Virus record (IMG/VR): IMGVR_UViG_3300027747_000094
Span: 1-21,990 of that record
DNA length: 21,990 nucleotides
Source of the DNA: a virus
Reading direction: 5' to 3' (one strand)
Shown here: in pieces, positions 3,811-21,990 of the stretch
Position numbering within the stretch: the stretch's first letter is position 1
How the letters are laid out: each line of letters opens with the position of its first letter
The notes under the pieces: generated by a model
The model's database searches: none
What the model was told of the DNA's origin: nothing
Seen by the model: only the letters and a program-made list of their open reading frames with translations
Translations under genes and position numbers: made by a program

Positions 3811-4224
3811 ATGACAGTCGAAGCAGAAACAGAGCATATACCGCTCGACCAACTGGCCAAAATCTATCGCAAAATAAAAACGCGTATGGATCTTGTGCAA
3901 AAAGAATTTGATACTCAACTCGAAACTTTAGCCGCACAACTGGATGAAGTTAAGACAGAGATCAAAGATCAGATGAAAGCGCAGGGCGCTAAATCTGTTA
4001 AGACGGACTTTGGTACGCTTAGCTTGGTAACCAAGACACGGTATTCCACAAATGATTGGGACTCGTTCAAGACCTTTGTTGTCCAGAATGATGTCGTTGA
4101 TCTATTGGAAAAACGTATCGCCCAACTAAACATGTCAAAGTTTTTGGAAGAGAACCCCGGCCTCGTGCCACCCGGCCTCAACTCTAATACAGAGTTTGAG
4201 ATCAAACTTTATAAAGCAAGTTAA
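3811..4224 (+). CDS. Gp157-like coiled-coil phage protein
   Basis: A 137-residue protein. The first 60 residues form a charged heptad-like helix (LAKIYRKIKTRMDLVQKEFD onward). The second half is a compact domain with the sequence style VKTDFGTLSLVTKTRY, a short DW-x-S-F-x-x-F segment, LLEKRIAQLNM and a terminal FLEENPGLVPPGLN. This two-part pattern, coiled coil then a KT-x-x-GT strand region, is shared by the widespread Gp157-type family encoded in phage replication clusters; its biochemical role is not established. It is preceded by a good ribosome binding site (AAGGAG, 3799-3804). The next gene starts five bases after its stop, so the two are likely co-translated. Association with the putative ssDNA-binding protein downstream suggests a role in replication or recombination, which is an inference from position. 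Confidence 0.6.
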   Translation: MTVEAETEHIPLDQLAKIYRKIKTRMDLVQKEFDTQLETLAAQLDEVKTEIKDQMKAQGAKSVKTDFGTLSLVTKTRYSTNDWDSFKTFVVQNDVVDLLEKRIAQLNMSKFLEENPGLVPPGLNSNTEFEIKLYKAS

Positions 4225-4229
4225 TCATC

Positions 4230-5186
4230 ATGTCAAATTTATCAATCTTTAATCCCGCACAAGTACCCGCATTCGCCCAAGGTGGTGAGTTATCCGACAC
4301 AGCTAAAGCCCTTATGGGTGGCTCAATCAGCACGAGCAGACGCATCTCTATCAAAGGTGGTGTGTTCCGTATCGTGGCTGGTGGCAAAGAGATCGCATCT
4401 ATTGAAGAGCGCCATCTTGATGTCATCGTGGTAAAAGCTGCACCCAAAGTCAGCCGTATCTTCTATGCAAAGTCATACGATGGCGATAACATCACAGGCC
4501 CCGATTGTTGGTCTAATGATGGCGACAAACCCGATGCGTCTATCAAGGCTCCTCAGTCTGCGACTTGCATGACTTGCTCACAAAACATTGCGGGTTCAGG
4601 TCAGGGCAATAGCCGTGCTTGCCGTTATCAACAGCGCATGGCAGTCATGTTAGCGGATAACCCCGATGACATTTTGCAACTCACGTTGCCTGCAACGTCT
4701 GTGTTTGGTAAGGAAGAAGGCGACAAGCGCCCACTCCAAGCCTATGTGCGTCACCTCGCATTAGCGTCCCCTCCTGTGGATGTTGAGAAGATCGTCACTC
4801 GCATGAAGTTTGATACCAAAGCTGAGAGCCCCAAGTTGTTCTTCTCTCCTGTACGTTGGTTGACAACGGTAGAGTTTGAGTTGAGCAAAGCCAAAGGACA
4901 CACGCAAGAAGCATTGGATGCTGTGCGTATGACGGCCTCTCAGTCTGATGGTGTAAAACCTAGAGCCCCTTTGAAGCTAGAAGGCACACGCCCTATGGGT
5001 GAGTTGACCAAGGAAGAAGACGCTCCAGTATACGAGCCTATTGCGGCCAAGGCAAAAGCCAAAGCCGAGCCTGTAGCTGAAGTTGACGATGAGCCCGAAG
5101 TCCGCAAGGAAACGGCAAAGCCTAGCGCTGTACCCGCAAAGAAAGGCAAACTTGCTGACATCGTAGCTGATTGGGATGACGAGTAA
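4230..5186 (+). CDS. Candidate ssDNA-binding protein with four-cysteine motif and acidic tail
   Basis: A 318-residue protein I cannot place in a named family with certainty. The N-terminal 230 residues are a mixed alpha/beta domain. It holds four cysteines, C93, C113-x2-C116 and C131, in a stretch rich in aromatic residues, Ser, Gly and basic residues (YAKSYDG, CMTCSQN, ACRYQQR). This pattern suits a zinc ribbon, as in the T4 gp32-type core. From about residue 230 the chain is low-complexity and Ala/Lys/Glu-rich, and it ends in the acidic ADIVADWDDE. An acidic C-terminal tip is characteristic of phage and bacterial ssDNA-binding proteins, where it recruits partners. Location among polymerase, helicase, nuclease and primase genes supports this. 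The start lacks a clear ribosome binding site, and the gap to the upstream stop is only five bases, so coupling is likely. The role is inferred, not shown. Confidence 0.5.
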   Translation: MSNLSIFNPAQVPAFAQGGELSDTAKALMGGSISTSRRISIKGGVFRIVAGGKEIASIEERHLDVIVVKAAPKVSRIFYAKSYDGDNITGPDCWSNDGDKPDASIKAPQSATCMTCSQNIAGSGQGNSRACRYQQRMAVMLADNPDDILQLTLPATSVFGKEEGDKRPLQAYVRHLALASPPVDVEKIVTRMKFDTKAESPKLFFSPVRWLTTVEFELSKAKGHTQEALDAVRMTASQSDGVKPRAPLKLEGTRPMGELTKEEDAPVYEPIAAKAKAKAEPVAEVDDEPEVRKETAKPSAVPAKKGKLADIVADWDDE

Positions 5187-5190
5187 ATAA

Positions 5191-5336
5191 GGTTTAGGGG
5201 GTAGCAAGAGCGGTCGCAACGTGTAGGTCGGGGTTGGTTTGTTGAACCTTTCTGTCCTCGTTAGATAGGAACATACCTACGGTTGCGTTTCCTCTGATGG
5301 AAAAGCATCACGCTACCCCCACCCTTAAATTAAACC
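5191..5336 (+). ncRNA. Candidate multi-helix structured RNA
   Basis: The longest gap on the + strand folds by eye into a closed, branched structure. P0 is GGTTTA 5191-5196 with TAAACC 5331-5336. P1 is GGGGGTAGC 5197-5205 with GCTACCCCC 5312-5320, nine perfect pairs more than 100 bases apart. P2 is CGCAAC 5215-5220 with GTTGCG 5282-5287, stacked through a small internal loop on GTAGGT 5223-5228 with ACCTAC 5275-5280. Inside are hairpins GGTT/AACC (5236-5248) and TGTCCT/AGGAACA (5253-5273, one bulged A). On the 3' side is TGATG/CATCA (5295-5310), or alternatively TTTCC/GGAAA (5288-5303). No ORF, tRNA or T-tract terminator explains it. It ends four bases before the start of a helix-turn-helix gene, so it may be a cis-regulatory leader, a stand-alone phage RNA, or a DNA-level replication element. 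I do not recognise a named class. Confidence 0.55.
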
Positions 5337-5339
5337 ACT

Positions 5340-5633
5340 ATGCCATACTCAGACAAAATTGTAGATTTAGTAGCCCGTTCGCCAAAAACATTAGGGAGTA
5401 CCCTAGGTCGGTGGGCGATACATTTGGACTTTCCTGTAACTAAAATAGCATATGCGCTGGGGGTCACCCGACAAACCGTGTACAACTGGTTTGAAGGTAA
5501 AGACGTCTTTGTTGCGTATCAAAACAGGGTAGAACTTTTAACAAAAATAATGTCATCCTCTAAAACGGCTGACGAAGCATGGAGAAGAATATGCAAGGAA
5601 TACAACCTAGATCCCTCAGTAACTCGGAACTGA
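5340..5633 (+). CDS. Small helix-turn-helix DNA-binding protein
   Basis: A 97-residue protein with a clear helix-turn-helix at about residues 31-54: FPVTKIAYALGVTRQTVYNW, where the GVTRQTVYNW part is the turn plus recognition helix of Cro/XRE- or YdaS-like regulators. The C-terminal 40 residues are helical and charged and could dimerise. The ATG at 5340 is the first possible start, because TAA at 5331-5333 closes the frame just upstream. It has no recognisable ribosome binding site and directly follows the structured RNA described at 5191-5336, so expression may depend on that RNA or be leaderless. It overlaps the next gene. Target operators are not identifiable here. Whether it controls the replication operon, the late genes or a host promoter cannot be told. 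No integrase or partner repressor is in the window. Confidence 0.75.
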   Translation: MPYSDKIVDLVARSPKTLGSTLGRWAIHLDFPVTKIAYALGVTRQTVYNWFEGKDVFVAYQNRVELLTKIMSSSKTADEAWRRICKEYNLDPSVTRN

Positions 5634-8739: not shown

Positions 8740-8899
8740 CAAAGGGCAGGGGTTTTTCATCCCCTGCCTAGACCCCGAAACTGTCCGAGTTGAAGGACTC
8801 AAGGCTTCTGTTCGTTATAGAGTATTTGACGCTAAAGCTAAAATTGGAATTAAGAACGGTCTGTTGGGTGTTCAGTTCTATCGAAGACCCCGCGCATAG
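8705..8899 (+). CDS. Small hypothetical protein (64 aa), last gene of the + operon
   Basis: Not assigned to a named family. A 64-residue basic protein with the pattern KLDKGQGFFIPCLDPE, then a beta-rich, Lys/Arg-rich tail ending in YRRPRA. The form 'Gly-Gln/Lys-Gly-Phe-Phe-x-Pro' is familiar from short phage proteins and looks genuine. GAGGAA (8695-8700) precedes the ATG at 8705. The gene overlaps the primase-helicase by 35 bases and, at its 3' end, the giant minus-strand gene by 50 bases. Its codons for GQGFFIPC also form a GC-rich hairpin (8745-8768). Coding on both strands across 8850-8899 constrains the sequence there. Confidence 0.6.
   Translation: MKSLRYPWIKLDKGQGFFIPCLDPETVRVEGLKASVRYRVFDAKAKIGIKNGLLGVQFYRRPRA
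8745..8768. terminator. GC-rich hairpin at the junction of convergent operons
   Basis: GGCAGGGG (8745-8752) pairs perfectly with CCCCTGCC (8761-8768) around the loop TTTTTCAT, with a further G-T wobble outside. It lies six bases after the primase-helicase stop on the + strand and about 80 bases beyond the giant gene's stop on the - strand. Neither side is followed by a proper T-run, so classical intrinsic termination is doubtful. On the - strand a short broken T-rich stretch follows (CTTTGTCAAGTTTTATCC). It may be a weak terminator, a processing or stability element, or chance within codons. Confidence 0.35.
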
Positions 8900-11800
8900 T
8901 ATTTGCAATTTTAATTTTTAGTTGGCGCATCTCGTCCAGCTTTGCCCGCTTTTCTTGTGGCGTCATAGTAGATGCTTTGATAGCATTCTCAGCTCGCGTG
9001 ATGGTGGCCAGTTGCTTTGTCACATTACCCACAACAGAAGCCGAGGCAAGCTCGTTGATATGGTCTTGCAAATATGCGTTGGCTTCGGAGCGCTTGCCTT
9101 CTTGGAGTAAATCTTTAAAGGTGTTTTGTACTTGTGTTAGCTCGTGCATATGGTCATACACAGCACTGATGCGACCTCCTGCATCCGCAGGCTGGAACAA
9201 AGAACCAATAACCGCTGTATCAGACAAACGCTTAACCGCTTGCTCTGGCGTATCAGACGTAGGCGCTGCTACATTCAATGCTTGGAGCAATGCCACACCC
9301 ATAGAACCCGTATACCCGCGTACCAAGTTTTCAATTTTAATAGGCGAGATATCAAACGCTTTGCCCAAACCTTTGGCTACTTCAGACGTATTGTCACGAT
9401 AGCGTTGGCCAGCTTGCAAGTTCTGTTCTTTAAGAGATTCTAATGAACGCCCAGTATAGAACGAATAGTTGGCTACGTTTTCAATAAAAGGTTTAATTGC
9501 TTCGGGCAAGAACATGGATGAACCGCCGGGTATGGTTTGGATTGCAATGGTCTTGAACGCCTTGTACGCATCTTCACCACCCTCAGAACTGCGCATTGAA
9601 TTGATGAGCGCTTCTGGAATTCCTTTAAAGATATATCCAATCTCAAATGGTACGGGCACACGAACTGCTTCTGAAATGCCGGGGATGTGTACAAAGAAGT
9701 TGCCATACTTTTCATCAGGGTTGGCGTTCTTATACGTGTCATCGTCTTGCATCAACAACGTGTAAGCCACAGCAGTTAAAGCCAATAAAGCACCACGTTG
9801 GAACAGCTTGTTTTGGATTTGCAAACGCTCATTCATGGGCATCTTACCTGTAAAGGCACGGTATAGAACATCCAAACTTTGTAGCTGGGCATTGAAGAAA
9901 GGTATCAATTTAGATGCCAATCCAACGCTAGGAGACACGCCACGACGGTTAAAGTTCATGGCTTCAAGAGACATGAGCGTGGCTTCCATTTCAGACAAAC
10001 CTTGGGCAATGTAACTGTTGTACTGAGCACGGCGGGTGGCTGCATCCGCTTCCATTGTGAGACCTTCAGCTTTGCTGATTAGTTGTGTCCAATCGGCTCT
10101 ACCCGCTTGGATGTCTCGCAATATCTTGGACAAGTCTTCGTTGGTTCCAGTAAAGATTTGACCGCCTGTGATACCGCGTCTTTCTAATTTTTCTTTGGTG
10201 GCAGACTTGCCCAACTCTTTGATAGCGCCCATCACAGGAGTAAAGTCAGCACCTGATAACAGCGGAGCTGCAACCGAGTCGCGTACTAGCTGACGAAACG
10301 CGTAGATAGGAGAAATGGTCACAGCTTTGCGTAAGAATGTAGCAGGCAAAGACATGGCCTTAACAACAGCGCTGTTGTTTAATGGAATACCTTCCAAACC
10401 TTTTACAAGTAAGTCGGCAGGAATACCCAGCGTCTTGGTATCAACCACCACAAACTTATCTTCGCCCTTGTCCCTAAAGCGCACAATATCTGGGCCTGAT
10501 GTAGACTTGGCTACAGTATGCGCTAGCTTCATGCCAATTAGCTCGTACATTGCGTTCTTGGTTGCCAAGTTACGCAAGCCCATATCCACAAGCATAGATG
10601 TGTTTTGTACTGAACTTGTCAAGAAGTCCAGTATCTTTTCTTCACCACCAATCAACTCATGCAGATAAGGCTGCTCACGCAAGTTGCCCACTTTAATAGG
10701 ATTCTCAGCGCCAATCATTAACTCTGCATTGCCGTTGCGCTCTCGGTAGTAGGGTATGTAGTCATTAGAATCGGCCAAGGCTTTGGCTTCGTCTGGACTC
10801 AAGGCGCCTGTGTCTGCCAAAAACTTCATCAAATCTTTGTTGTATTTGTTGTACTCATTACGAGCTTGAGTAAATACAGAGTGCAGTTTTTGATTGCCCT
10901 CAATTTGTTTGACGGCATCACGTAGATCAGCTTCTTTAACTTTGTAGTTAAGTTTGGCGTAACCTACGCGCTCTGCACGTTTACCCAACAAATAAAGACT
11001 GAACAAACGGTTGGCGGCTTCAGCGTTCATATTGGGAGCTTCTTTAAGGATGCTCACAACTCTAGCCAAGTTAGCACCGGGCACGCTCTCAATCACATAC
11101 TCGGTACGCCCGTCTTTACGGGTATAAGCCACGCGTTGTGGGACGCCTATGCCGACTGCTTGCTGGGTAAAAGACATACGTTGATCGTACATACGCAGGT
11201 AATACATCATCTGCATACCCTTGAATGCGTCTTTCATTTCACCCGCAATCTTCTCAAGCGGAGCAAAGCGGTCAAGCACTTGGGTTCTGAATGCCAAACC
11301 AAGGTTGGCTTCCACACGCTGACGGATAGACTTAGGACTTGCAATTACTTTGTCGGCTGTTGCCAAAACCTTTTCAAAGCCCGGTGCTTGAGCCTTGGGA
11401 GCATAGCGCTCCTCTTCAGGCTCTTCGGTCATAGCCTGTACGGGTGGTGAGTCGGCAATTTTGTTTGGTGCGTCTACTTTTCCGTATTCGGTAAACAGCG
11501 CTCTATCTTTAGTTTCTGGCGTATTAAAAAACTCTTTGTTTATTTTTTTATTTATTTCCAAAATTTCTTTTGGTGCTAGATTTGGTTCTACATAAAGTTT
11601 ATTAGTGGCAGTTTCTAACCAATCAGAAAAACTACTGTCATCTGTCATTGCCCTATCAACAGCATAAACAAACTGTTTATTAAACGCATTTTCAAATTGT
11701 TTTTTAATAGAGTCTACAAGACGTTTAAACCCTGCGTCTTTTAAAGCAGAGGTCAACGGGTTAGATAGTTCTGCCGTATCAACTAAACCACTTCTGGCTT

Positions 11801-14800
11801 TTTGACGTAGCATTGCGCGTATAGAACCAACAACACTATTCGCCATGTCTTTAGCATCAAATTTTTGCTCGTTAACATATAGCGCATCAGGTAATTTTAA
11901 ATTCAAACTAACTGTTGAACTGTAATTTAAAACTAAATCTTTGACAGTTTGAACGCCATAAATAGTCGCATCAACGCTTTGTGAAGCTGGGCGTATTTTG
12001 TTAATTACAGCCCCGACAGGCGTGTATATTGTGCTGTCTTTAAAAAGGATGAGTTCATCTATAGGACTGGTTAAACTGGGTAATTTTAAAACTTTTTTAA
12101 AGTTACTAATATCATTCACAATCTCTAAACTTGGAAAGGTGTCTTCAGTATATGTTTCGTACACATTTAAGTGGTTTAAACCCTTAATAGTTTTAGCATC
12201 TGCTGAGTATGTTTTTCCTTTGAATTCAAATTCAAAAACGACGGGAGAGCTAGAACTAAAAGTCAAATGTTGCCCCGGAAAATAATTTGAAGCAAAAGCT
12301 TTTTCTGTGGCGTCTTCTAAAATGTTTGTAATTTCTTTAACGACTTTAGCTGAAGGGTCTGGTCTGTTAGAGTACCCGTCAACAACTCTAAACGCCAATA
12401 ATTTTTCAACTGCGTAGTCGTAAACAGCCAAACCTTTATTGGGGGTATCTCTTAAATAGTCACCCATACTAAAAAGCATAGGTGTGGTAAGTTCTTTATC
12501 GCCTTTAAGAACCCCTATCAAAAATTGTTTACGATCAAATTCTTCTACGTATCTAGACGTGTTTGCAAAATTATTTTTGGCCAAAAAATCTTTGGCTATT
12601 TTTTGTTGCGCATCACTAAGCGCTTGATTAGGGCTATTACCTCTAATCTCACCAACATCGTTTGTTCCGTTCATGCGTACAGCAACTTCGGGTCTGCCGT
12701 TACTATAGTAAATATAAAAATCGCCGTTTGTAATTTGGGTTTGTGCCGTAGAAACACCTGAACCTGTACACCAAGGCGTATTTGCAGCGCCTGCATTTAA
12801 TGCAACAGCGGCATCGTATTCATCAGACTGGTCAAACTTTTGCCAACCTTCTTTGCGTTGATTGTTTTTAGCATTCTTATCTGCAACTTTTTGCATACCA
12901 TCTAAGAATGCTTCTTTGAGCGGTTTGCCTGCACGCAGTTCTTCAATCACGGCGTGCGCATCATCAATACTAACTACCGCTACTGAATGCCGATTATTGG
13001 GTTCAATGGTCGCAATTTTTAAACGACCATCTTTGCCTGATAGAATTGCGTATTTAGCGGCAGCTTTAGCAACCAAGGCTTGTTCTACAAACGTATAACC
13101 GCCGTGATCCATCATATTTTTGATAAGACTTCTAAGACTTTTTCTGCGCTCAGCATTGATTGACTGTGCTTCCCTGTCTCTTAAAAGACTATCATTTTGT
13201 GCTTTTAAATTGGCAAATGTAGCGGGTTCCGCTTCAACATAATGCAACGCACTATTAGGATCGTAGTTTTTACCGTCAGACATGACGGTGCTGTAATCCA
13301 GTTTATTTGGATCCGCAAACTTGATATATTTACCAGAACTAAAATCTAGCTTTCCTTGAGGTGTTGCCACTTCGTTGTACATGTCATCCAAGTAGTCACG
13401 ACCAATGCGGTTGGCGTCCTCGGGTGTACGGTCTTTTTGTTTGATGTCTCCACCAAACTGATCCGCAAACTGCTTCATTGAGTTACTACCCGTATGGAGC
13501 GCGGCTATGTCTTTTGCTGACAACCGTTGGTTTACAGCCTTTTCTTTGCCACCAAGTTTGGTGCTGGAAGGAATGAACAACGCATCAACAGACTGGAGCG
13601 CTGCGCCCAACATGGTCTGGGCTTCTGCATCAAAGCCCAACATACGCAAGATAATGCTCTTAAATCCGTTCCATGCGTCTTGTAATTTCCAACGCTTACC
13701 CTTGAGTTGTTCTTGCAAATTGCGGTTGGACATAACCTCTGCCACAAACTCAGACAGACTGCTCTTGGCGTTGACGCTAGTAAAGCGTGGGTCATTCTTG
13801 ACGACATTGTGTAACAACATCAACTCTTTAACAGCAACCCTTTGCATCTCTGTGAGCTTGCTTGGGTCTTTCTCGTACTGAACAATTACACGTTCAGCGC
13901 CTGCATGAGTTCCTTCGTGCAATAAAATTTCTTCAGACAGACCACCATTCCGATTAAGTGTGACCTTTGTACTGATGGCAGAACCCAAAACTTCATTGCC
14001 ATTCTTGTCAGTCATGCTGTTGACCAACTTAACATCTGTGTTGTCCAGCAAAGCCGCGAGGCGTGCGGCAACTACCTTGGCAATCTTAGATGTACCCTTG
14101 GCGTTAGCCAAATCTGTAAGCGCTGCTTGGATGTCGTTGTTCTCAAGATGTTTGATTTGTGTCTCAGTCAGGTCAGGCGTTTGGGTCTCTACGCCACGAG
14201 CCAATCGTTCGCCTTCTTTCTCAGACTGGATACCTTCTTCAAAATCTCTTTGGATACCTTTGAGTCGGTTGTAGCGTTGGGTACGTTGCGCAGTTTCTGT
14301 TTTGCTTTCAGCAGAAGAAGTTCTGAATTGTCCGGGAGCACCCGAAGCATTGCGTGTTTCTTGCGGTGTGCGTTTAGAAGGCACTTGCTGTGTGCCAGTA
14401 GTAGCCAAGGCTTCTTGAAGTTTTTTAACTTGTTCAGCAAGGGCTTGCTTGTACTCAGGTGTTTTCTTACCCAACTCCAAGGCTTTTTCAACACGCTCAT
14501 TACCGATTGCAATACGGTAGTCGTTTACAGCTTTGTCGTTAGCACCATGTTTTTTGCGCAGGTTATCCAAGCGTTTGACTTGATCGTCTATCATTGCTTG
14601 GTATTCAGGAGACTCCATGCCTTTTTGTTTGGCAAGGTCTTTTAAAGCTGTGGTCTGTTCAGCTTCTTTGCTTACATCTCCGGCATTGATGCGTTTGGCT
14701 GTTGCTGCCGCACGAGACACAGGAACTTTACCCGTCTTGGTACGTTCTTTTGAACGACGCAATTCTTCAGCGCGTTGCTCGGCTTTAATGTCGCTGGCTT

Positions 14801-17240
14801 TAGCCGCAGGCTTGACTTCGTATAAAGACCTGTGCAACTCTTCAATCTTTTTGCGGGTAGGCGCAATTTCTTTAGCCACCAAAGCATCGTAGCGCCTTTG
14901 CAAAGTTTGCATTTTGCGTTTGACTTGAAACTTTTCTGACGCATCCATTTGCCGTTCTGCGGGGGCTTCTCCTTTGCCTAATTTGGCTTGGAGGGCAGCG
15001 GCTTTTTCACGCATGTTTGGGCGTGCGATACCTGTCTCTAGTCTTTTCTCAAGATCGTCGTACTCATTGGCCATCATCTCCAATTGTTGATAGTACGAAA
15101 ACTTGTTGTTCTTTTGTCGGGTTAGCACATGGCGCATCAAACCCTGAATTTGGTTGGTCACCGAATCGTAAGTGTCTTCATCCGCCGTGCGTGTAAGTTT
15201 AGTACCCGCCAAGTTAAGACGCTCGTCCAAAGATTTAATCAACGCTTCTTTATCGGCAGCCGCCTTATCTTTCTCAGTTTCTCTTTTAACGCGTTGCTCT
15301 TCGCGGTAAGGCACAGACAAGTTCAACACCTCTTGCATATTGCCTTCGTTGATGGCGTTACGCATTTTATTGGTGGTACTAAAAATATCCGTGATCTGAC
15401 GACTGGGTTTGTTGGACGCCAGCAAACGCTTGATTTCAGCTTCTGTCTTGTTGATCTCGTCTGTCTTGGCGTTGATGGCCAGTTGGTCACCGCCTTTTAC
15501 AAGTGCTGGCAATTCTTTGTTAGCACGATCAAGTTTCTTTTCGGCTTCTTGAATTCTTTTATTTACTTCCGTTTGACGCTTTGTCACATCAGCCAAAGAA
15601 TAAGACAACGCTTCTTTAGGTGTCTTAGCCATCCCGGGTTCTTCGGGAGCTGCCTCTTGTTTTATAGGAGGTAAAGGCGCTTCTTCTCGCGTAAATAATT
15701 CACGGGTCTGCCCACGTTGTTGGACGTTGGCTTGTTGTTCTTCGTAGGCAGCGCGTTGACGGGCGTGTTCTTTTTCTAAATCAGTTAGTTCTTTTTTGTG
15801 TTGCTCCAAGGCAGCAGCGTGTTTGGCTACCGCTTCAAAGTCGCCTACAGACTGGGCGGTATCTAGTTTCTTTTCTGTAGAAGCAATCTTACTTTGCTTG
15901 ATTTTAAGATCGGCAGCCGCTTGCGTTTCAAACTCGCCTTGAGGCTGAGTGACGCCACCCATTTGTTGAATAGTAGAACTCAAAGCACCAATACGATCTT
16001 GGAGTTTTTTATGCTGATCGGTCAGTTGGGCAATAGCGCCTGTGTCTCGGGCTTTAACAGCATCGTTAATTTGTGCTTCCAACTGCCTTGCTTGGCGTTG
16101 CATAGCATCGTGTTCATCTACCAAACGTTGCGCATTGGGGGCAGGCTCATTGGCCAGTCTTGCAGGCGGTGCCACATTTGTTTCAGTAATTCCTGTAGGC
16201 AACGGTGCGGGTGCAGGGCCAGTAGGTGCGGGCAACGCTAATAATTGTTCAGGTGCGGGTAGTGCAAGTTGAGGTTCCGCAGGAGGTGCGGGTGGTATTG
16301 GCTGTTCTTCTTCAGCCCCTGCAAGTTTAGCTTGTGCTTTTGCACGCCCACGTTCCACAGCACGACCGGGGACAGATAAAACACCACCAAGGACAGCACC
16401 GCCAAGGAAGTTGTCTAAGTATTCTTGACGAGCTTCAGGATCAGTAAGGGATAACCCTGCTTGTAAACGCTCAAAGACTTGTTGCCCAGCTTCTGTCAAA
16501 CCTTCAGCACCAGCAACTTTACCACCTGTTAAAGCGTAATCACCGAGGGTTCTAGTAAGTCCTTGTTCTGCAATCTTTTTAGCTTCTGCGTTGGTCAAAG
16601 CAATACCGGCTTCACCAAACAATCCCTTAACGCCGGGTATCATGCGTAAACCAAAGGTATCCAAAGCCGCCTGTGGCACGGCGGCTAGGGCAGCGGCACC
16701 AAGACTAGTATCCGCTAAGCGTTTGCCTTCTTCCATTTGACGAGCTAAATTGGTCGCAGTAAATTGCCCAGTACCCGCACCAAACGCGGCCAAAGTACCC
16801 GCACCTAATCCAGCAATAGCCAACTCAGGTGCGGCAATTGCAGCTCCCACACCCGCAACAGCAGGAGCAACCATATAAGGTAGAGACCCACCAACAAGCT
16901 CACCAAATTTAGTTAAAGGTGCTTCTAAAAAACTTTTTTCTGTAGGTTGGAAAGCTTGCCTAGACTTTTCTTGCTGGGCTCTAAAATACGCTTCCGCTTG
17001 TTGCGGATCAGTAATGCCCAGTTTGCCAGCTAAAGCACCAAGGCCACCTTTAAGAGATTCATAACTTGACTCAAGGGCTGGCATAAAGCCGTGTTTGGGT
17101 TCTGCTTTAGGCGTAGGTATTTCTTCAGGGGTCTCTTCCTGCATGAAATCTTTTGCCAATTGTGCAAGACGTCTAGCTGCTTCGACGTCTCCTGCGGCAT
17201 CTGCATTGTGCAAAGCCGTCAGAACCTCGTTAAGTCTCAT
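8850..17240 (-). CDS. Giant polyvalent virion-type protein (2796 aa) with HEGTH zincin-like motif and LPD38-like C-terminal region
   Basis: A single uninterrupted 2796-codon frame, last of the minus-strand operon. In order: N-terminal helices; hydrophobic Ala/Gly-rich segments (about 117-160 and 180-195) that could insert in membrane; a Pro-rich linker (about 305-365); a long Lys/Glu/Gln-rich coiled-coil stretch to about 1010; a zincin-like motif, H1108-E-G-T-H1112, with E1164 or E1168 as possible third ligand; an AT-rich central part (about 1250-1925) with PWCTG at W1490; a helical region; and an LPD38-like domain from about N2431 (NRRGVSPS, IPFFNAQLQ) with a hydrophobic helix near 2485-2500. 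Polyvalent proteins of phages are thought to be injected with DNA and to carry several effector or protective domains. Start: TAGGG overlaps the upstream stop, 9 bases away. Roles of individual domains are inferred. Confidence 0.8.
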   Translation of the reverse strand: MRLNEVLTALHNADAAGDVEAARRLAQLAKDFMQEETPEEIPTPKAEPKHGFMPALESSYESLKGGLGALAGKLGITDPQQAEAYFRAQQEKSRQAFQPTEKSFLEAPLTKFGELVGGSLPYMVAPAVAGVGAAIAAPELAIAGLGAGTLAAFGAGTGQFTATNLARQMEEGKRLADTSLGAAALAAVPQAALDTFGLRMIPGVKGLFGEAGIALTNAEAKKIAEQGLTRTLGDYALTGGKVAGAEGLTEAGQQVFERLQAGLSLTDPEARQEYLDNFLGGAVLGGVLSVPGRAVERGRAKAQAKLAGAEEEQPIPPAPPAEPQLALPAPEQLLALPAPTGPAPAPLPTGITETNVAPPARLANEPAPNAQRLVDEHDAMQRQARQLEAQINDAVKARDTGAIAQLTDQHKKLQDRIGALSSTIQQMGGVTQPQGEFETQAAADLKIKQSKIASTEKKLDTAQSVGDFEAVAKHAAALEQHKKELTDLEKEHARQRAAYEEQQANVQQRGQTRELFTREEAPLPPIKQEAAPEEPGMAKTPKEALSYSLADVTKRQTEVNKRIQEAEKKLDRANKELPALVKGGDQLAINAKTDEINKTEAEIKRLLASNKPSRQITDIFSTTNKMRNAINEGNMQEVLNLSVPYREEQRVKRETEKDKAAADKEALIKSLDERLNLAGTKLTRTADEDTYDSVTNQIQGLMRHVLTRQKNNKFSYYQQLEMMANEYDDLEKRLETGIARPNMREKAAALQAKLGKGEAPAERQMDASEKFQVKRKMQTLQRRYDALVAKEIAPTRKKIEELHRSLYEVKPAAKASDIKAEQRAEELRRSKERTKTGKVPVSRAAATAKRINAGDVSKEAEQTTALKDLAKQKGMESPEYQAMIDDQVKRLDNLRKKHGANDKAVNDYRIAIGNERVEKALELGKKTPEYKQALAEQVKKLQEALATTGTQQVPSKRTPQETRNASGAPGQFRTSSAESKTETAQRTQRYNRLKGIQRDFEEGIQSEKEGERLARGVETQTPDLTETQIKHLENNDIQAALTDLANAKGTSKIAKVVAARLAALLDNTDVKLVNSMTDKNGNEVLGSAISTKVTLNRNGGLSEEILLHEGTHAGAERVIVQYEKDPSKLTEMQRVAVKELMLLHNVVKNDPRFTSVNAKSSLSEFVAEVMSNRNLQEQLKGKRWKLQDAWNGFKSIILRMLGFDAEAQTMLGAALQSVDALFIPSSTKLGGKEKAVNQRLSAKDIAALHTGSNSMKQFADQFGGDIKQKDRTPEDANRIGRDYLDDMYNEVATPQGKLDFSSGKYIKFADPNKLDYSTVMSDGKNYDPNSALHYVEAEPATFANLKAQNDSLLRDREAQSINAERRKSLRSLIKNMMDHGGYTFVEQALVAKAAAKYAILSGKDGRLKIATIEPNNRHSVAVVSIDDAHAVIEELRAGKPLKEAFLDGMQKVADKNAKNNQRKEGWQKFDQSDEYDAAVALNAGAANTPWCTGSGVSTAQTQITNGDFYIYYSNGRPEVAVRMNGTNDVGEIRGNSPNQALSDAQQKIAKDFLAKNNFANTSRYVEEFDRKQFLIGVLKGDKELTTPMLFSMGDYLRDTPNKGLAVYDYAVEKLLAFRVVDGYSNRPDPSAKVVKEITNILEDATEKAFASNYFPGQHLTFSSSSPVVFEFEFKGKTYSADAKTIKGLNHLNVYETYTEDTFPSLEIVNDISNFKKVLKLPSLTSPIDELILFKDSTIYTPVGAVINKIRPASQSVDATIYGVQTVKDLVLNYSSTVSLNLKLPDALYVNEQKFDAKDMANSVVGSIRAMLRQKARSGLVDTAELSNPLTSALKDAGFKRLVDSIKKQFENAFNKQFVYAVDRAMTDDSSFSDWLETATNKLYVEPNLAPKEILEINKKINKEFFNTPETKDRALFTEYGKVDAPNKIADSPPVQAMTEEPEEERYAPKAQAPGFEKVLATADKVIASPKSIRQRVEANLGLAFRTQVLDRFAPLEKIAGEMKDAFKGMQMMYYLRMYDQRMSFTQQAVGIGVPQRVAYTRKDGRTEYVIESVPGANLARVVSILKEAPNMNAEAANRLFSLYLLGKRAERVGYAKLNYKVKEADLRDAVKQIEGNQKLHSVFTQARNEYNKYNKDLMKFLADTGALSPDEAKALADSNDYIPYYRERNGNAELMIGAENPIKVGNLREQPYLHELIGGEEKILDFLTSSVQNTSMLVDMGLRNLATKNAMYELIGMKLAHTVAKSTSGPDIVRFRDKGEDKFVVVDTKTLGIPADLLVKGLEGIPLNNSAVVKAMSLPATFLRKAVTISPIYAFRQLVRDSVAAPLLSGADFTPVMGAIKELGKSATKEKLERRGITGGQIFTGTNEDLSKILRDIQAGRADWTQLISKAEGLTMEADAATRRAQYNSYIAQGLSEMEATLMSLEAMNFNRRGVSPSVGLASKLIPFFNAQLQSLDVLYRAFTGKMPMNERLQIQNKLFQRGALLALTAVAYTLLMQDDDTYKNANPDEKYGNFFVHIPGISEAVRVPVPFEIGYIFKGIPEALINSMRSSEGGEDAYKAFKTIAIQTIPGGSSMFLPEAIKPFIENVANYSFYTGRSLESLKEQNLQAGQRYRDNTSEVAKGLGKAFDISPIKIENLVRGYTGSMGVALLQALNVAAPTSDTPEQAVKRLSDTAVIGSLFQPADAGGRISAVYDHMHELTQVQNTFKDLLQEGKRSEANAYLQDHINELASASVVGNVTKQLATITRAENAIKASTMTPQEKRAKLDEMRQLKIKIANTMRGVFDRTEHPTDRS
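11465..13370 (-). other. AT-rich central segment within the giant gene
   Basis: From roughly 13370 down to 11465 the giant gene changes base composition. A hand count gives 12 G+C in 60 (11521-11580) and 19 in 60 (12181-12240), against 27 in 60 in the flank (10321-10380). Codons ending in A or T and Lys/Asn/Phe-rich stretches dominate. The protein part includes NTPWCTGSG, a strand-rich segment GDFYIYYSNGRPEVAVR and GEIRGNSPN, then Leu- and Ser-rich repeats of strand character. The frame stays open, so it is an in-frame insertion or domain replacement rather than damage. Boundaries are by eye. Confidence 0.5.
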
Positions 17241-17249
17241 AGGAATACC

Positions 17250-19541
17250 CTATTGTGAATAATATTTAGAAAAATCCGCTTTTGCTTGTTCTGATATACG
17301 ACTTGGATGAATTATACCCAAATTCTTGTATGCGTCTTGGATAAAAGTTTGGTACGCCATACGTGCTTGTTCAGGTGTTGCATTGAGATGCAATGGGTTC
17401 TTTTGCCATTCGGCAAAGTTTCTATCAGCAGAAGCAAGCGCTGCTTGTGGCCCACGTATATCTTCGTAGTATCCGGCTTGAGCGCCGTATAGTTGACCTT
17501 GTTGTTTTTGTAATGCTTCCAAAGCGTTTTGCTTGCGTTCTTCAAGCATCGCACGTTTCTTTTCTTGCTCGTTTCTTAAAGCGCCAAGTCCAGCATTACC
17601 CAAATTTTGTAGCGCATAAGGCGACTGACCAGCCATCAAACCAAGACCCAAGTTCAACAACAGATCATTCCAATCACGGCTGGGTTTGAGTCCTTCGCCT
17701 GTGGGTTTGTTGGGTTGCAATCCTTGTCCTGTTTCTCCAGATGGGGGTGGCATATAAAGCCGATCTTCTGGGCCGTTCTCGTTAGGGTACTGGGGCTCAA
17801 TACCCGCAGCGTTGGTGGTCGCCGCAATTTGCGGAACCACTCCCAAAGTAGAAGCAACCCCTTGCATACGCGCTGCCTCACCGCGATTTTCTGCGCTAAC
17901 TTCTCTAGCGGCTTCTACATTTTTGGCTGTTTGATTAGCTTTTTTCCACGCTTCAACTTCAGCCGCATTTGCAGGCATACCTTGTTCGTCATTGATTGCG
18001 TTAATCATATTTTGACGACGCGAAGCAGGCATAGCGTTGCCTTGTGAATCTACAACAATAGGCTCTCCGGGGCGTGACATTTCAAGCCTTGGTTGTGTCG
18101 TACCTTCTGGCGTCAAAGTCTTGCGCTTACCGCGTTCAATAGCTTGTTGCATTGCGGCTTCTGTTTCAGCAATACCGCCTGAAGGACGCTTAATAGATTC
18201 ACCAAGACCAATATGCGCAAGATAAGGAGGTATTTTTAAATCTTCTAAGTTTTTACCAAAAGCTTGAGAAACCGCTTTACCGCCTTCAGTACGGGGGGCG
18301 TATGTGACTTGACTTGACAAACGCTTGAATGTGTCTTCCATTGGAACGCCATTAAAAACCTTATTGCCAAGCGCTGCAATTCCTGCCGTAGGAATTGACA
18401 ATAACCCAGTACCGTACTGCAAAGCTGTTTCGCCTGCACCAATTAAGCCTTGGTTACCTGTAATGGCCTGCGGTGTTGCCGCTGCTTTAGCTGCTTGTTC
18501 TTTTGCAATAGCAGGATTAACGCCGGGTATTAAATCCGCAGGTGCTCTTCCGGGTACGGTTTCTGCTTGTGCAGAAGGGATAAAACTAGTAACTGCCGTT
18601 CCCAACTTTTTAAGATAGTTGTTGGCTTCTGGTTTGTTTAGTTTTTCAGGAACAAGCGCACCCTCATTTTGTTTTAAGTGCTTGTTTAAAAACTTTTCAC
18701 CTTGGTTGTAGGCCACGGCTATTTTTTGTGGGTCGTTGTTGTACTTGCTTTGTAGGTCTTTAATGAACGCCAAAGAAGCATCAATATTTTTAAAACCATC
18801 AGTACGTTCTTCAGGTTTAACGCCGTAATGTAGACCTGTTTTTTTAGTCAATTGCCCAATACCTACTGGGCCTGTAGGAGACTTAGCGTATGGTTTGTAT
18901 CCTGATTCAATACTAAAAATGCGATCGGCAAGTTCTGGAGACACGCCCATTTCTCTTGCTTTTTGTAGTGCATAGCGACGGTATACATCAGGAGAGTAAT
19001 CAGGGGAACCACCTGTGGCATAACCCGTAATCCCACCACCAGCCATGTTTCTTGAAGTCACGCCACTATCGGGGCGCAAATCTACAGCGGGGGCCATTTG
19101 AGCATAGTTAAACATACCTGGTTGCTGGCCACCATCGGCATATCCAGCAATACCTCCGTCAGCCATGTTCTGTAAGTTAGGGGCGTTCAATGCACCAATG
19201 CCTTGATCTTCTGGCAAAACATTGATGGCTTGTCCATGACCGCCTGTAATTGTTTGTCCTGCACCACCTGTTAAAGGAGTAGGTGTCATTTGCGCCAGAT
19301 CTTGATCCACTACAGGAGGTGGTTTTTGACCTGCCATTTGCGCAGCTTGCCCAGCACGCATTTGCTGGCGTGTTTGACTTTCTTGAAACGCTAATGGAAA
19401 CACAAATGGATCGCTCTTGTGCATTGCCGCATATTGCTGTAGCTGTTGGTCAGACATACCTCTAAGTGTAGAGGTAATTTGCATGACGTTGCCTGTAGAG
19501 GGCGCTACGCCGCCCATTGGAAACATTGGATTCATTGCCAT
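17250..19541 (-). CDS. Virion protein with lytic transglycosylase (SLT) domain
   Basis: A 763-residue protein. Residues about 180-290 are an SLT-type lytic transglycosylase: RIFSIESGY with catalytic E212, PTGPVGIGQLT (222-232) and AYNQG (277-281), which cleaves peptidoglycan glycan strands. Upstream are two copies of a Gly-rich motif, MADGGIAGYADGG (126-138) and MAGGGITGYATGG (166-178). After the enzyme domain comes a segment with GAGETALQYGTG and VTYAPRTEGG that I have the impression recurs in phage polyvalent proteins, then a disordered Pro/Asn-rich part and a C-terminal helical region (about 640-763). As in T7 gp16, such an enzyme in a virion protein would locally open the cell wall during DNA ejection. 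GGGAG lies seven bases before the start. It begins one base past the stop of the Gln-rich gene and ends nine bases before the giant gene. No signal peptide is seen, consistent with virion delivery. Confidence 0.88.
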   Translation of the reverse strand: MAMNPMFPMGGVAPSTGNVMQITSTLRGMSDQQLQQYAAMHKSDPFVFPLAFQESQTRQQMRAGQAAQMAGQKPPPVVDQDLAQMTPTPLTGGAGQTITGGHGQAINVLPEDQGIGALNAPNLQNMADGGIAGYADGGQQPGMFNYAQMAPAVDLRPDSGVTSRNMAGGGITGYATGGSPDYSPDVYRRYALQKAREMGVSPELADRIFSIESGYKPYAKSPTGPVGIGQLTKKTGLHYGVKPEERTDGFKNIDASLAFIKDLQSKYNNDPQKIAVAYNQGEKFLNKHLKQNEGALVPEKLNKPEANNYLKKLGTAVTSFIPSAQAETVPGRAPADLIPGVNPAIAKEQAAKAAATPQAITGNQGLIGAGETALQYGTGLLSIPTAGIAALGNKVFNGVPMEDTFKRLSSQVTYAPRTEGGKAVSQAFGKNLEDLKIPPYLAHIGLGESIKRPSGGIAETEAAMQQAIERGKRKTLTPEGTTQPRLEMSRPGEPIVVDSQGNAMPASRRQNMINAINDEQGMPANAAEVEAWKKANQTAKNVEAAREVSAENRGEAARMQGVASTLGVVPQIAATTNAAGIEPQYPNENGPEDRLYMPPPSGETGQGLQPNKPTGEGLKPSRDWNDLLLNLGLGLMAGQSPYALQNLGNAGLGALRNEQEKKRAMLEERKQNALEALQKQQGQLYGAQAGYYEDIRGPQAALASADRNFAEWQKNPLHLNATPEQARMAYQTFIQDAYKNLGIIHPSRISEQAKADFSKYYSQ

Positions 19542-20571: not shown

Positions 20572-21990
20572 TTATGCGGGTAAGTATTGTTCAGCGCGGG
20601 GATTGGCCGCCACTTGGTTTTTGCCCGTGGTTTTTTTACGAGCACTTTGAATGCGATCCATCATTTTGTAAAGTTGACGAGCGCCTGCCTCAGTTGATCC
20701 ATTCCCAAGTTCAGAAACGATCCGAGCAGGAACCACAAACTCGCCATCAGCAAGACGAGCAGGCTGACGGTTTCCAATAGATGCAGGGATAGAATCAGAG
20801 ACACCATCGCCCGGGCCACGAAGTAAACGCCCCCCATCTGAGTAGCCTCCTAAATGCCCCATCATTGGCATACCGCCAGCAGCATAACGGTACAAAAGTT
20901 TTGCAATACCTGTCAACCCGCCTTTGGCATCTTCTTCAGCATGACCACCAAAATTATTGTGTCCACCACCGCCACCACCAGAATTGTCAACAAAATGCCC
21001 AGACGAGTCTATCGTACCCACAGCTGATACTGGATGACTGTCTACACCATTTGTTGTATCAAATGTTGTAAACGATACAGTATTATTATCAGTTGTAGGG
21101 ATAGCGTTTGGATCTTGTACATTAGTTAAAAATGCCGTTGCCGTGGTTGCATCAACTCCCATAGCACCTGCTGCATCCTTAATAGAAATATGATTATTAG
21201 TTAAAAATGCGTTTGCGGCATCTTTTTGTTGTTGTGTTGTTAAGCTGCTATCGGTAAGAATGTTTGCAAGTGTATTTGATATGTCTTCGGTAGATAATTT
21301 TCCACTATCTTTAGTACCGGCAGCACCAGTACCTTCAATAGTTCCAGAACCTCCACCATTAGTTCCAGAACCTCCACCATTAGTTCCAGAACCTCCACCA
21401 TTAGTACTATCATTCACAGGCGTGACTAAAGTAGGAATACCACCGCCAGTTGTACTTGTATTATTATCAGTTGTAGGCGTGACTAAAGTAGGAATACCAC
21501 CGCCAGTTGTATTTGTATTATTATTATTATTAGTTGTGGGCGTAACTAAAGTAGTGATACCGCTACCCGTTGTATTTGTATTATTATCAGTTGTGAGCGT
21601 AAATCCCATATCAATTACATCTTGTATTGTTAACGTGCCATTTTGTAAACCCGTTAATATTTGACCTGGGGTGAGAGAAGTTGTCGTAGGTGTTACTGGC
21701 GTCACAGGTGTTACTGGCGTCACAGGCGTCACAGGTGTTACTGGCGTTACTGGCGTCACAGGTGTTACTGGCGTCACAGGTGTTACTGGCGTCACAGGCG
21801 TCACAGGCGTCACAGGCGTCACAGGTGTTACTGGCTTTACTGGCGTCACAGGCGTCACAGGTGTTACTGGCGTCACAGGTGTTACTGGCGTCACAGGTGT
21901 TACTGGCGTCACAGGCGTGATGGGTGTGATGGGTGTGATGGGTGTGATGGGTGTGATGGGTGTGATGGGTGTGATGGGTGTGATGGGTGT
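20572..21990 (-). CDS. Thr-Pro repeat protein with conserved phage C-terminal motif (partial, 5' end outside window)
   Basis: At least 473 residues; the frame is open to the right edge, and the apparent start at 21912 is an internal GTG inside a repeat, so the true start is outside. The visible N-terminal part is Thr-Pro-Val/Ile repeated more than 30 times, an extended proline-rich stalk or linker. Next come three copies of a 19-21 residue unit ([12 protein letters not shown] with Asn-rich ends), three GGGSGTN units, and a helical segment around [15 protein letters not shown]. The C-terminal 100 residues hold [18 protein letters not shown], then [14 protein letters not shown] and [20 protein letters not shown], a motif recurrent at the C-termini of phage structural proteins. 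It could be a tail or fibre-associated or ejected protein. The C-terminal motif supports a virion role; the repeat's function is unknown. Confidence 0.7.
21340..21402. repeat. Three perfect tandem copies of a 21-base unit
   Basis: Three identical 21-base units at 21340-21360, 21361-21381 and 21382-21402 encode GGGSGTN three times on the minus strand. They form a flexible Gly/Ser linker inside the Thr-Pro repeat protein. Identity down to the third codon position suggests recent expansion. Confidence 0.9.
21419..21595. repeat. Three imperfect tandem copies of a 57-63 base unit
   Basis: Copies at 21419-21475, 21476-21538 and 21539-21595 share ACTAAAGTAG, then ATACC, GTTGTA and TTGTATTATTAT blocks. 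The middle copy is longer by two ATT-type codons (more Asn on the coding strand). They encode the Gly-Gly-Ile-Pro-Thr-Leu-Val-Thr-Pro units with Asn/Thr-rich spacers. The third copy is the most diverged. Confidence 0.85.
21690..21916. repeat. Tandem 9-base repeats encoding Val-Thr-Pro
   Basis: About 25 tandem 9-base units in two spellings, GGCGTCACA and GGTGTTACT, often alternating as an 18-base higher-order unit. They encode Val-Thr-Pro on the minus strand. One unit carries a single change giving Val-Lys-Pro (near 21830). Unit length is a multiple of three, so gain or loss of copies keeps the frame. Confidence 0.92.
21917..21990. repeat. Eight perfect 9-base repeats running to the window edge
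   Basis: GTGATGGGT is repeated eight times without a mismatch (21917-21988) and continues to the edge. It encodes Thr-Pro-Ile on the minus strand, a variant of the neighbouring Val-Thr-Pro tract. The window stops inside the repeat, so its full length is unknown; an assembly break in the repeat is possible. Confidence 0.92.

Follow-up and report, generated by a model that had tools for sequence, protein, structure and literature searches.

Do the 153 bases that separate a gene for an SSB-like protein from a helix-turn-helix (HTH) gene in an uncultured virus of bacteria encode an RNA, on which strand, and what might this RNA do? The window, which is the whole stretch of DNA that was analysed, is the linear virus record IMGVR_UViG_3300027747_000094 (21,990 bases). 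Its + strand contains a run of replication genes encoding a DNA polymerase A, a PD-(D/E)XK exonuclease, an HNH protein, an SNF2-type helicase, the SSB-like protein, the HTH protein, and a primase/helicase-like DUF927 protein. The SSB-like gene (4230–5186, + strand; stop codon at 5184–5186) encodes an acidic-tailed protein that matches PHROG 27714, for which the PHROG function entry is "unknown", and gave no match in Pfam at E 0.1. Judging from the acidic WDDE tail and the position of its gene, this protein may represent an undescribed family of single-stranded DNA-binding proteins. The HTH gene occupies positions 5340–5633 (+ strand). No Shine-Dalgarno-like sequence was seen ahead of this gene (window 5321–5342).

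An earlier note, made from the letters of the DNA, had proposed that an undescribed structured RNA lies at positions 5191–5336, in the gap upstream from the HTH gene. This location was borne out, as was the statement that neither a tRNA nor a terminator provides an explanation. ARAGORN detected no tRNA or tmRNA gene in the window or in 26 relatives. No promoter-like or terminator-like site was found on the + strand between positions 4900 and 5500, and the outer stem of the RNA, P1, is directly followed by ACCC and not by the T run that comes after the GC hairpin of an intrinsic terminator. P1 may hold the stop and start codons of the flanking genes near each other in space, leading to translational coupling. 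Neither the window nor 20 relatives (114,225 bases) contained a match to any Rfam 15 family at the gathering threshold. A permissive Rfam search of positions 5100–5420 only returned a weak match to mir-3613 (18.4 bits versus a gathering score of 91). No published description of this RNA, designated class A, was found in literature titles and the opening lines of abstracts.

Folding energy and parts of the class A RNA

The predicted folding energy of positions 5191–5336 (+ strand) was −55.3 kcal/mol versus a mean of −40.96 kcal/mol for shuffled sequences (z −3.21), and none of the 200 shuffles folded as well. The trimmed element at 5197–5324 (+ strand) had a z of −3.90, again with 0 of 200 shuffles as good. 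Thus, the shuffled control and the covariation detected in relatives (see below) both support the structured RNA proposed earlier. The minus strand also folds strongly (z −3.60), so that energy alone cannot assign the strand, which was deduced from wobble pairs.

The whole class A element, from P1 to the R-C-C tail, comprises about 127 nt (5197–5323, + strand, as for all parts described below) and was delineated by fold z and a covariance model. The model matched positions 5204–5299 (75 bits, E 4.7e-20), a match obtained by construction since an identical core (L001) sits in the model. P1 is formed by GGGGGTAGC (5197–5205) and GCTACCCCC (5312–5320). The perfect 9-bp helix noticed earlier is present in the window and is kept as a stem in relatives, which replace its sequence, and the conserved unit is the core located at positions 5207–5295. 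P1 is immediately followed by an A-C-C tail (5321–5323) resembling the R73-C74-C75 sequence of precursor tRNAs, and R-C-C was counted at the same offset in other elements (see below). The more distal helix P0 (5191–5196/5331–5336) does exist in the window sequence but is not conserved in relatives and was rejected as a part of the RNA.

The core begins with a lower helix, AGAG/CTCT (5207–5210/5292–5295), in which core pairs 5-91 and 6-90 covary and provide two of the five significant pairs. The following bulged C (5211) was present in 49 of 49 cores, partly by construction because it lies within the extraction anchor, and was also invariant in an 18-sequence alignment of the site. The strand GGUCGCA (5212–5218) faces positions 5284–5291 (UGCGUUUC), with G-C and G.U pairs at 5212–5213/5290–5291, a U x UU internal loop in which U 5214 faces UU 5288–5289, and a CGCA/UGCG helix (5215–5218/5284–5287). 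A variable mismatch (5219 x 5283), the pair 5220-5282, and a bulged G (5221; G in 45 and A in 4 of the 49 cores) lead to P2 (5222–5228/5275–5281), which is the most strongly covarying helix, with significant covariation for columns 22-85, 23-84, and 25-82. Next comes the P3 hairpin, CGGGG/CCTCG (5229–5233/5256–5260), which has a G.U pair shared by all 49 cores (within the anchors) and a loop that varies in length and letters. P3 (CGGGG/CCUCG) is absent from the single-sequence minimum-energy fold of the window. In the core alignment, a single strand, UUA...ACAU (5261–5274), leads back to P2. A 3' hairpin, GATG/CATC (5296–5309; strands 5296–5299/5306–5309), is optional. Of the internal features listed in the earlier note, the split inner helix is present in the window sequence, but only one inner hairpin (P3) is conserved and the inner pairing was in part not retained; the 3' hairpin is present in the window but only in some of the other members. 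Inspection by eye for a pseudoknot linking the P3 loop to the UUA...ACAU strand showed complementarity in single sequences but no consistent pattern, and this pairing was rejected.

Covariation and strand assignment

IMG/VR was scanned with the two flanking proteins and the best 80 loci per scan were retained, which provided 154 loci containing both genes in order and 71 distinct gaps. Extraction with a regular expression from all of the sequences collected, including those of the DNA-pattern scans mentioned below, yielded 49 distinct cores in 132 loci, some of which overlap on one contig. The anchor letters of this expression include two G.U pairs, the invariance of which is therefore built in; the same letters were invariant or nearly so in 18 class A gaps chosen by eye from the 71 distinct gaps. 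DNA-pattern scans for class A elsewhere returned 104 and 90 stretches, with chance matches among them.

When the structure described above was applied to the 49 cores, 97.5% of the cells were able to pair, and 12 of the 23 pairs displayed double changes (142 cells). Pairing fell to 37–58% if the partner strand was slid by 1 to 3 columns, and the covariation score of the alignment was reached by none of 500 shuffles. RNAalifold recovered 22 of the 23 pairs without being supplied with a structure, 11 of them with compensatory changes. In a phylogeny-aware test, substitutions inferred by parsimony were re-dealt on a FastTree tree using an R-scape-like script and 60 null alignments. Five column pairs were obtained at E ≤ 0.05 and all five were consensus base pairs. 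These results indicate that related phages keep the pairing of the gap through compensatory changes, an outcome that the earlier note had named as supporting evidence.

Unconstrained folds of the 49 cores contained at least 18 of the pairs in 31 cases and fewer in the remaining 18. For seven elements located outside the main family, unconstrained folding recovered all 23 core pairs for L172, L243, L176, L165, and L207, 22 pairs for L266, and 16 pairs for L264. The fold z was unexceptional for five of these seven elements (−0.57 to −1.91). Since energy is weak in the outside elements, the case for a common RNA rests on covariation.

On the + strand, paired columns contained 132 G.U versus 2 A.C cells, with 98 of the 132 originating from the two anchor-fixed pairs; omitting these two pairs left 34 G.U versus 2 A.C cells. 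The excess of G.U over A.C indicates that the molecule is an RNA read in the direction of the genes. Class A is thus a conserved, discrete structured RNA, and its structure and strand are secure. We infer its processing and its function from the observations described below.

Gene context of class A

Most of the class A loci found sit between SSB-like and HTH genes, the upstream SSB-like gene being the recurrent neighbour, a point that the earlier note had missed along with the exchange of RNAs at the site and their common R-C-C tail. In L163, L166, and L189, the RNA stands between an SSB-like gene (49% identical) and a primase-like gene, and a search of these loci for the HTH gene gave no match better than E 0.4. 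The element of L207 is flanked by distant homologues of both the SSB-like gene and the HTH gene. In L165, one small gene follows a Gp2.5-like SSB gene and the next gene matches RusA-like resolvase and processivity-factor families. The RNA follows a gene without assigned function in L172/L234, and the flanking genes of L266 are likewise without assignment. Genes for a RecE-like exonuclease and an endolysin, one on each side, are each about 2 kb away from the element of L239/L243, genes for the small and large terminase subunits flank that of L264/L278, and the element of L176 is at a contig edge. The outer stems of the seven outside elements are unlike in sequence.

A cis-acting leader had been one of the roles considered in the earlier note. 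A leader or riboswitch controlling the HTH gene, for example in an autoregulatory manner, would fit the location of the class A element in the window, where it ends 16 nt upstream from the HTH start codon, as well as the prevalence of the SSB-like/HTH arrangement. We regard this role as very improbable because the downstream genes are unrelated in other phages, because no HTH gene was detectable in L163, L166, and L189 despite the presence of the RNA, and because HTH orthologues that are 93–98% identical occur without class A RNA, which is swapped or replaced at the site. A DNA-level structure of the replication region, such as an origin or a cruciform, had also been envisaged and would account for the replication genes that flank the element in the window. 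This possibility is extremely improbable in view of the strand-specific excess of G.U over A.C outside the anchor columns, and of the elements found between terminase genes (L264) and between RecE-like exonuclease and endolysin genes (L243).

Class A was present as a single copy in 20 of 20 viral records. It was not found in any of 59 additional loci from the same protein family. The gap was read and had other content in 55 of these loci, and the remaining 4 end or are unread at this position. In bacterial and archaeal genomes (84,980), a strict pattern gave no match and a relaxed pattern gave 70 stretches, with a single strong model match (L339, 83.4 bits) in a 4.3-kb contig of a lake MAG. 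The next-best genome stretches (23.8 bits, E 0.00056 and 20.6 bits, E 0.0054) were taken as chance. Comparison of three class A elements with INPHARED by blastn gave no match for one element and short partial matches for the others (best E of 0.1 and 0.03). A partial match to Aeromonas phage phiA014S was not supported by the covariance model.

Exchange of the gap following the SSB-like gene

Among relatives, the gap located after the SSB-like gene contained class A, a second RNA designated class B, a few other folds, many GC hairpins in gaps of 30–34 nt, and one 7-nt spacer, the class labels being assigned by regular expressions. The gaps containing a plain hairpin or a spacer were only 7–34 nt in length. 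Five further distinct cores were found in the gap after the SSB-like gene of L073, L079, L137, L141, and L144, with a G-C stem followed by ACC.

Gap types were mapped by parsimony on a quick IQ-TREE tree of 119 SSB-like proteins, with recombination disregarded. This required 32 changes, and 19 for class A alone, at least 14 of which were forced by starred branches, although gene-gap recombination or chimeric contigs could raise the number of switches. Tree neighbours differed in gap type, as shown by L164 (class A) and L068 (class B), and by L245 (class A) and L140 (class B). L191 (class A) also adjoins L005 (hairpin) on the tree, this pair not being starred. The site is evidently often exchanged and no single RNA is indispensable there.

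Class B RNA

Class B, which is unrelated to class A and much commoner, was defined by the pattern GAAAGCGGATGC...CGCAGCGAGTA, with a GAA/AGUA closing motif that resembles loop E, and an ACC tail. The exact pattern occurs in at least 120 stretches of IMG/VR, examples being L359:2057–2116 and L065 (about 3985–4063), and a class B element is also present in a gap of the GenBank phage MW202879. No Rfam match was obtained for class B in the relatives scanned. The possibility that class A is a divergent class B was discarded since none of the class B gaps was detected with the class A model.

In total, 112 distinct class B elements found by pattern were analyzed, 8 of which were stemless by rule and were dropped before the tail count. 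Class B cores mostly begin 9–16 nt past a stop codon, and a stop codon in at least one of the frames was present within the 20 nt preceding P1 in 98 of 103 elements. Acidic tails of SSB type, such as DDDIPF and WDDE, which span different SSB families, terminated 40 of 97 genes directly upstream of class B versus 12 of 1815 background open reading frames (at least 100 amino acids, same loci), a contrast that is overstated because the rule was made after the tails had been seen and because the background holds spurious frames. The PHROG scan took 87 of the 97 usable upstream proteins and returned 15 matches to PHROG 7364 and 15 to PHROG 18154 (both SSB, with a possible overlap of the two lists), 11 to PHROG 27714, 4 to PHROG 112 and 2 to PHROG 7011 (Gp2.5-like), 1 RecT-like match, and 1 match to PHROG 44 (SSB). 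As a side observation, the gap of L055 (about 3973–4362) contains a GGGGGTTGG/CCAACCCCC element with two hairpins resembling tRNA T arms (loops TTCGATT and TTCGATC), followed by a small open reading frame and by a class B-like RNA. ARAGORN called no tRNA in this locus.

The chief alternative to the reading that we prefer (see below) is a gene-agnostic element acting in cis, i.e. a folded 3' UTR of the SSB mRNA involved in protection of the transcript, in pausing or antitermination of RNA polymerase, or in the ratio of expression of the flanking genes, for which the plain hairpin would be the minimal form. The GC hairpins that close relatives carry in the 30–34 nt gap, the acidic tails upstream of class B (with the reservations made above), the place of SSB and annealing families among the most frequent PHROG matches, and the absence of a terminator-like site on the + strand are all consistent with this explanation. 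We nonetheless consider it somewhat unlikely, since a stabilizer has no need of an invariant unpaired core, since class A is also found behind non-SSB genes (L243 and L264), and since the R-C-C tail is missing from plain hairpins.

The R-C-C tail and putative processing by RNase P

According to an excerpt of PMC11143913, the R73-C74-C75 sequence of precursor tRNAs pairs with GGU in the P15 loop of bacterial RNase P RNA. An excerpt of PMC12710915 reports that a pseudoknot aptamer is cleaved by RNase P RNA in a manner dependent upon a 3' RCCA motif, and that a C at position −1 induces RNase P cleavage one base upstream. Titles cited in PMC12710915 and PMC11143913 present the C4 RNA of P1/P7 and the phi80-induced RNA as RNase P substrates.

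R-C-C was located directly after P1 in 78 of the 104 class B elements with a stem, versus a maximum of 6 of 104 for offsets 1–24. For class A, the corresponding figures were 21 of 32 distinct flanks (derived from the 49 cores) and a maximum of 4 of 32 for offsets 1–19. P1 was trimmed to begin with G, implying that G+1 and the G-C closing pair are partly obtained by construction, but not the tail. At the hotspot, R-C-C was detected in 29 of the 33 gaps labelled class B, two of which (L055 and L145) show another core first, in 5 of 5 other cores with a stem, and in 0 of 20 plain hairpins. For class A at the hotspot (n = 40), an automatic stem finder that misplaces many P1 stems returned 13 elements with R-C-C, 24 without, and 3 without a stem. 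The finder also misplaces P1 in the flank set (L165, L177, L130, and L172). Since it is unreliable for class A at the hotspot, we relied on the flank count.

Class A elements without R-C-C carried ACA (L170 group), GCT (L041 and L130), GAC (L028), ATC (L266), TTC (L172), TCC (L207), or CCC (L264). In members with G-C-C, C at position −1 is able to pair with G73, thereby lengthening P1. A C at position −1 was present in 59 of 103 class B elements. Besides the R-C-C tail, a GUUY sequence immediately preceding P1 was also recurrent in unrelated contexts (L172, L243, L264, and L266).

A new self-cleaving ribozyme cutting the polycistronic mRNA between genes would fit several properties of class A, the core of which is compact (about 87 model positions) and has several unpaired bases that are invariant, the outer stems and loops being indifferent and no particular gene being attached. 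Small phage ribozymes, such as hammerhead, pistol, twister, and hatchet, have the same compact core, free choice of neighbours, and variable outer stems. Unlike these ribozymes, class A has no Rfam match. In addition, the only conserved bases present outside P1 at an obvious cleavage point are the R-C-C tail and GUUY, and the tail is common to unrelated cores, which makes self-cleavage quite improbable.

Our preferred reading, to which we give a little less than an even chance, is that phages carry class A within the SSB transcript as an exchangeable RNA cassette that has an accessory function and that host RNase P probably sets free. The RNA would be transcribed within the mRNA running from the SSB-like gene onward. 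As in a precursor tRNA, the stem closed by G-C and the R-C-C tail would guide host RNase P to cut before the first G of P1, and this cut would free a stable RNA. The core, with its bulged C, G.U pairs, U x UU loop, bulged G, P3, and UUA...ACAU strand, would be the part that binds a partner. The job of the RNA would be accessory (host takeover, regulation, or counter-defence) and would not be a DNA-replication step, as suggested by the gain, loss, and swapping of the cassette among close relatives. Strong early expression is likely for SSB genes. Together with the accessory and exchangeable character of the RNA, it leads us to prefer a regulator or counter-defence RNA acting in trans to a replication element. 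The replacement of the RNA by plain hairpins at the site argues against release of a cassette by RNase P, since this is expected for a simple stabilizer of the mRNA acting in cis. The class A groups devoid of R-C-C, the potential pairing of C at position −1 with G73, and the ordinary fold energies of five of the seven outside elements also speak against our reading.

Relation to known systems

The C4 antisense RNA of P1/P7 and the phi80-induced RNA, judging from the titles mentioned above, are phage RNAs that the RNase P of the host cuts out of a longer transcript. The C4 antisense RNA has an Rfam entry. In contrast to C4, class A has no Rfam match, and we infer its processing. RNA antiterminators encoded by the put sites of HK022 are gene-agnostic structured RNAs located at the start of early phage operons. 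Class A, compared here with a description of put, is also a gene-agnostic operon RNA but has a mid-operon location. RNA anti-CRISPRs (Racrs) may be analogous to class A in the role proposed above, as accessory small RNAs encoded by phages and acting on the host. They mimic CRISPR repeats, according to an excerpt of PMC10651486, whereas class A is a longer covarying fold.

A published survey of viruses and phages has reportedly catalogued more than ten thousand candidate structured RNAs, and class A may be one of its unnamed entries. Accessory genes swapped at fixed phage sites have often proved to encode counter-defence proteins. At the SSB hotspot, the swapped items are folded RNAs, one of which, class B, occurs in at least 120 stretches of IMG/VR as a whole. 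This swapping suggests that viruses possess a class of RNA genes that is still unexplored. A broader proposal, which we consider unlikely, is that folded RNAs unrelated to one another, among them class A, class B, and at least five further cores, make up a large repertoire in phages that has gone unrecognised. These RNAs would be interchangeable cassettes, often located behind SSB genes, that host RNase P would free via the common R-C-C tail and that phages would turn against the host as weapons or regulators. If true, this repertoire would be the RNA counterpart of the hotspots of anti-defence genes. The common R-C-C tail makes release by RNase P cheaply and decisively checkable, and the hotspot lets more such RNAs be found by position rather than by sequence.

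Other features of the window

Three additional features were noted away from the gap. In a gene of PVT-type repeats (20572–21990, minus strand), a perfect 9-base repeat (GTGATGGGT) comes after the array, right where the record ends; the contig may therefore end in an unresolved repeat. A single 2796-amino acid frame occupies positions 8850–17240 (minus strand) and contains an LPD38 domain near its C-terminus. The gene that comes next (17250–19541) encodes an SLT transglycosylase domain.
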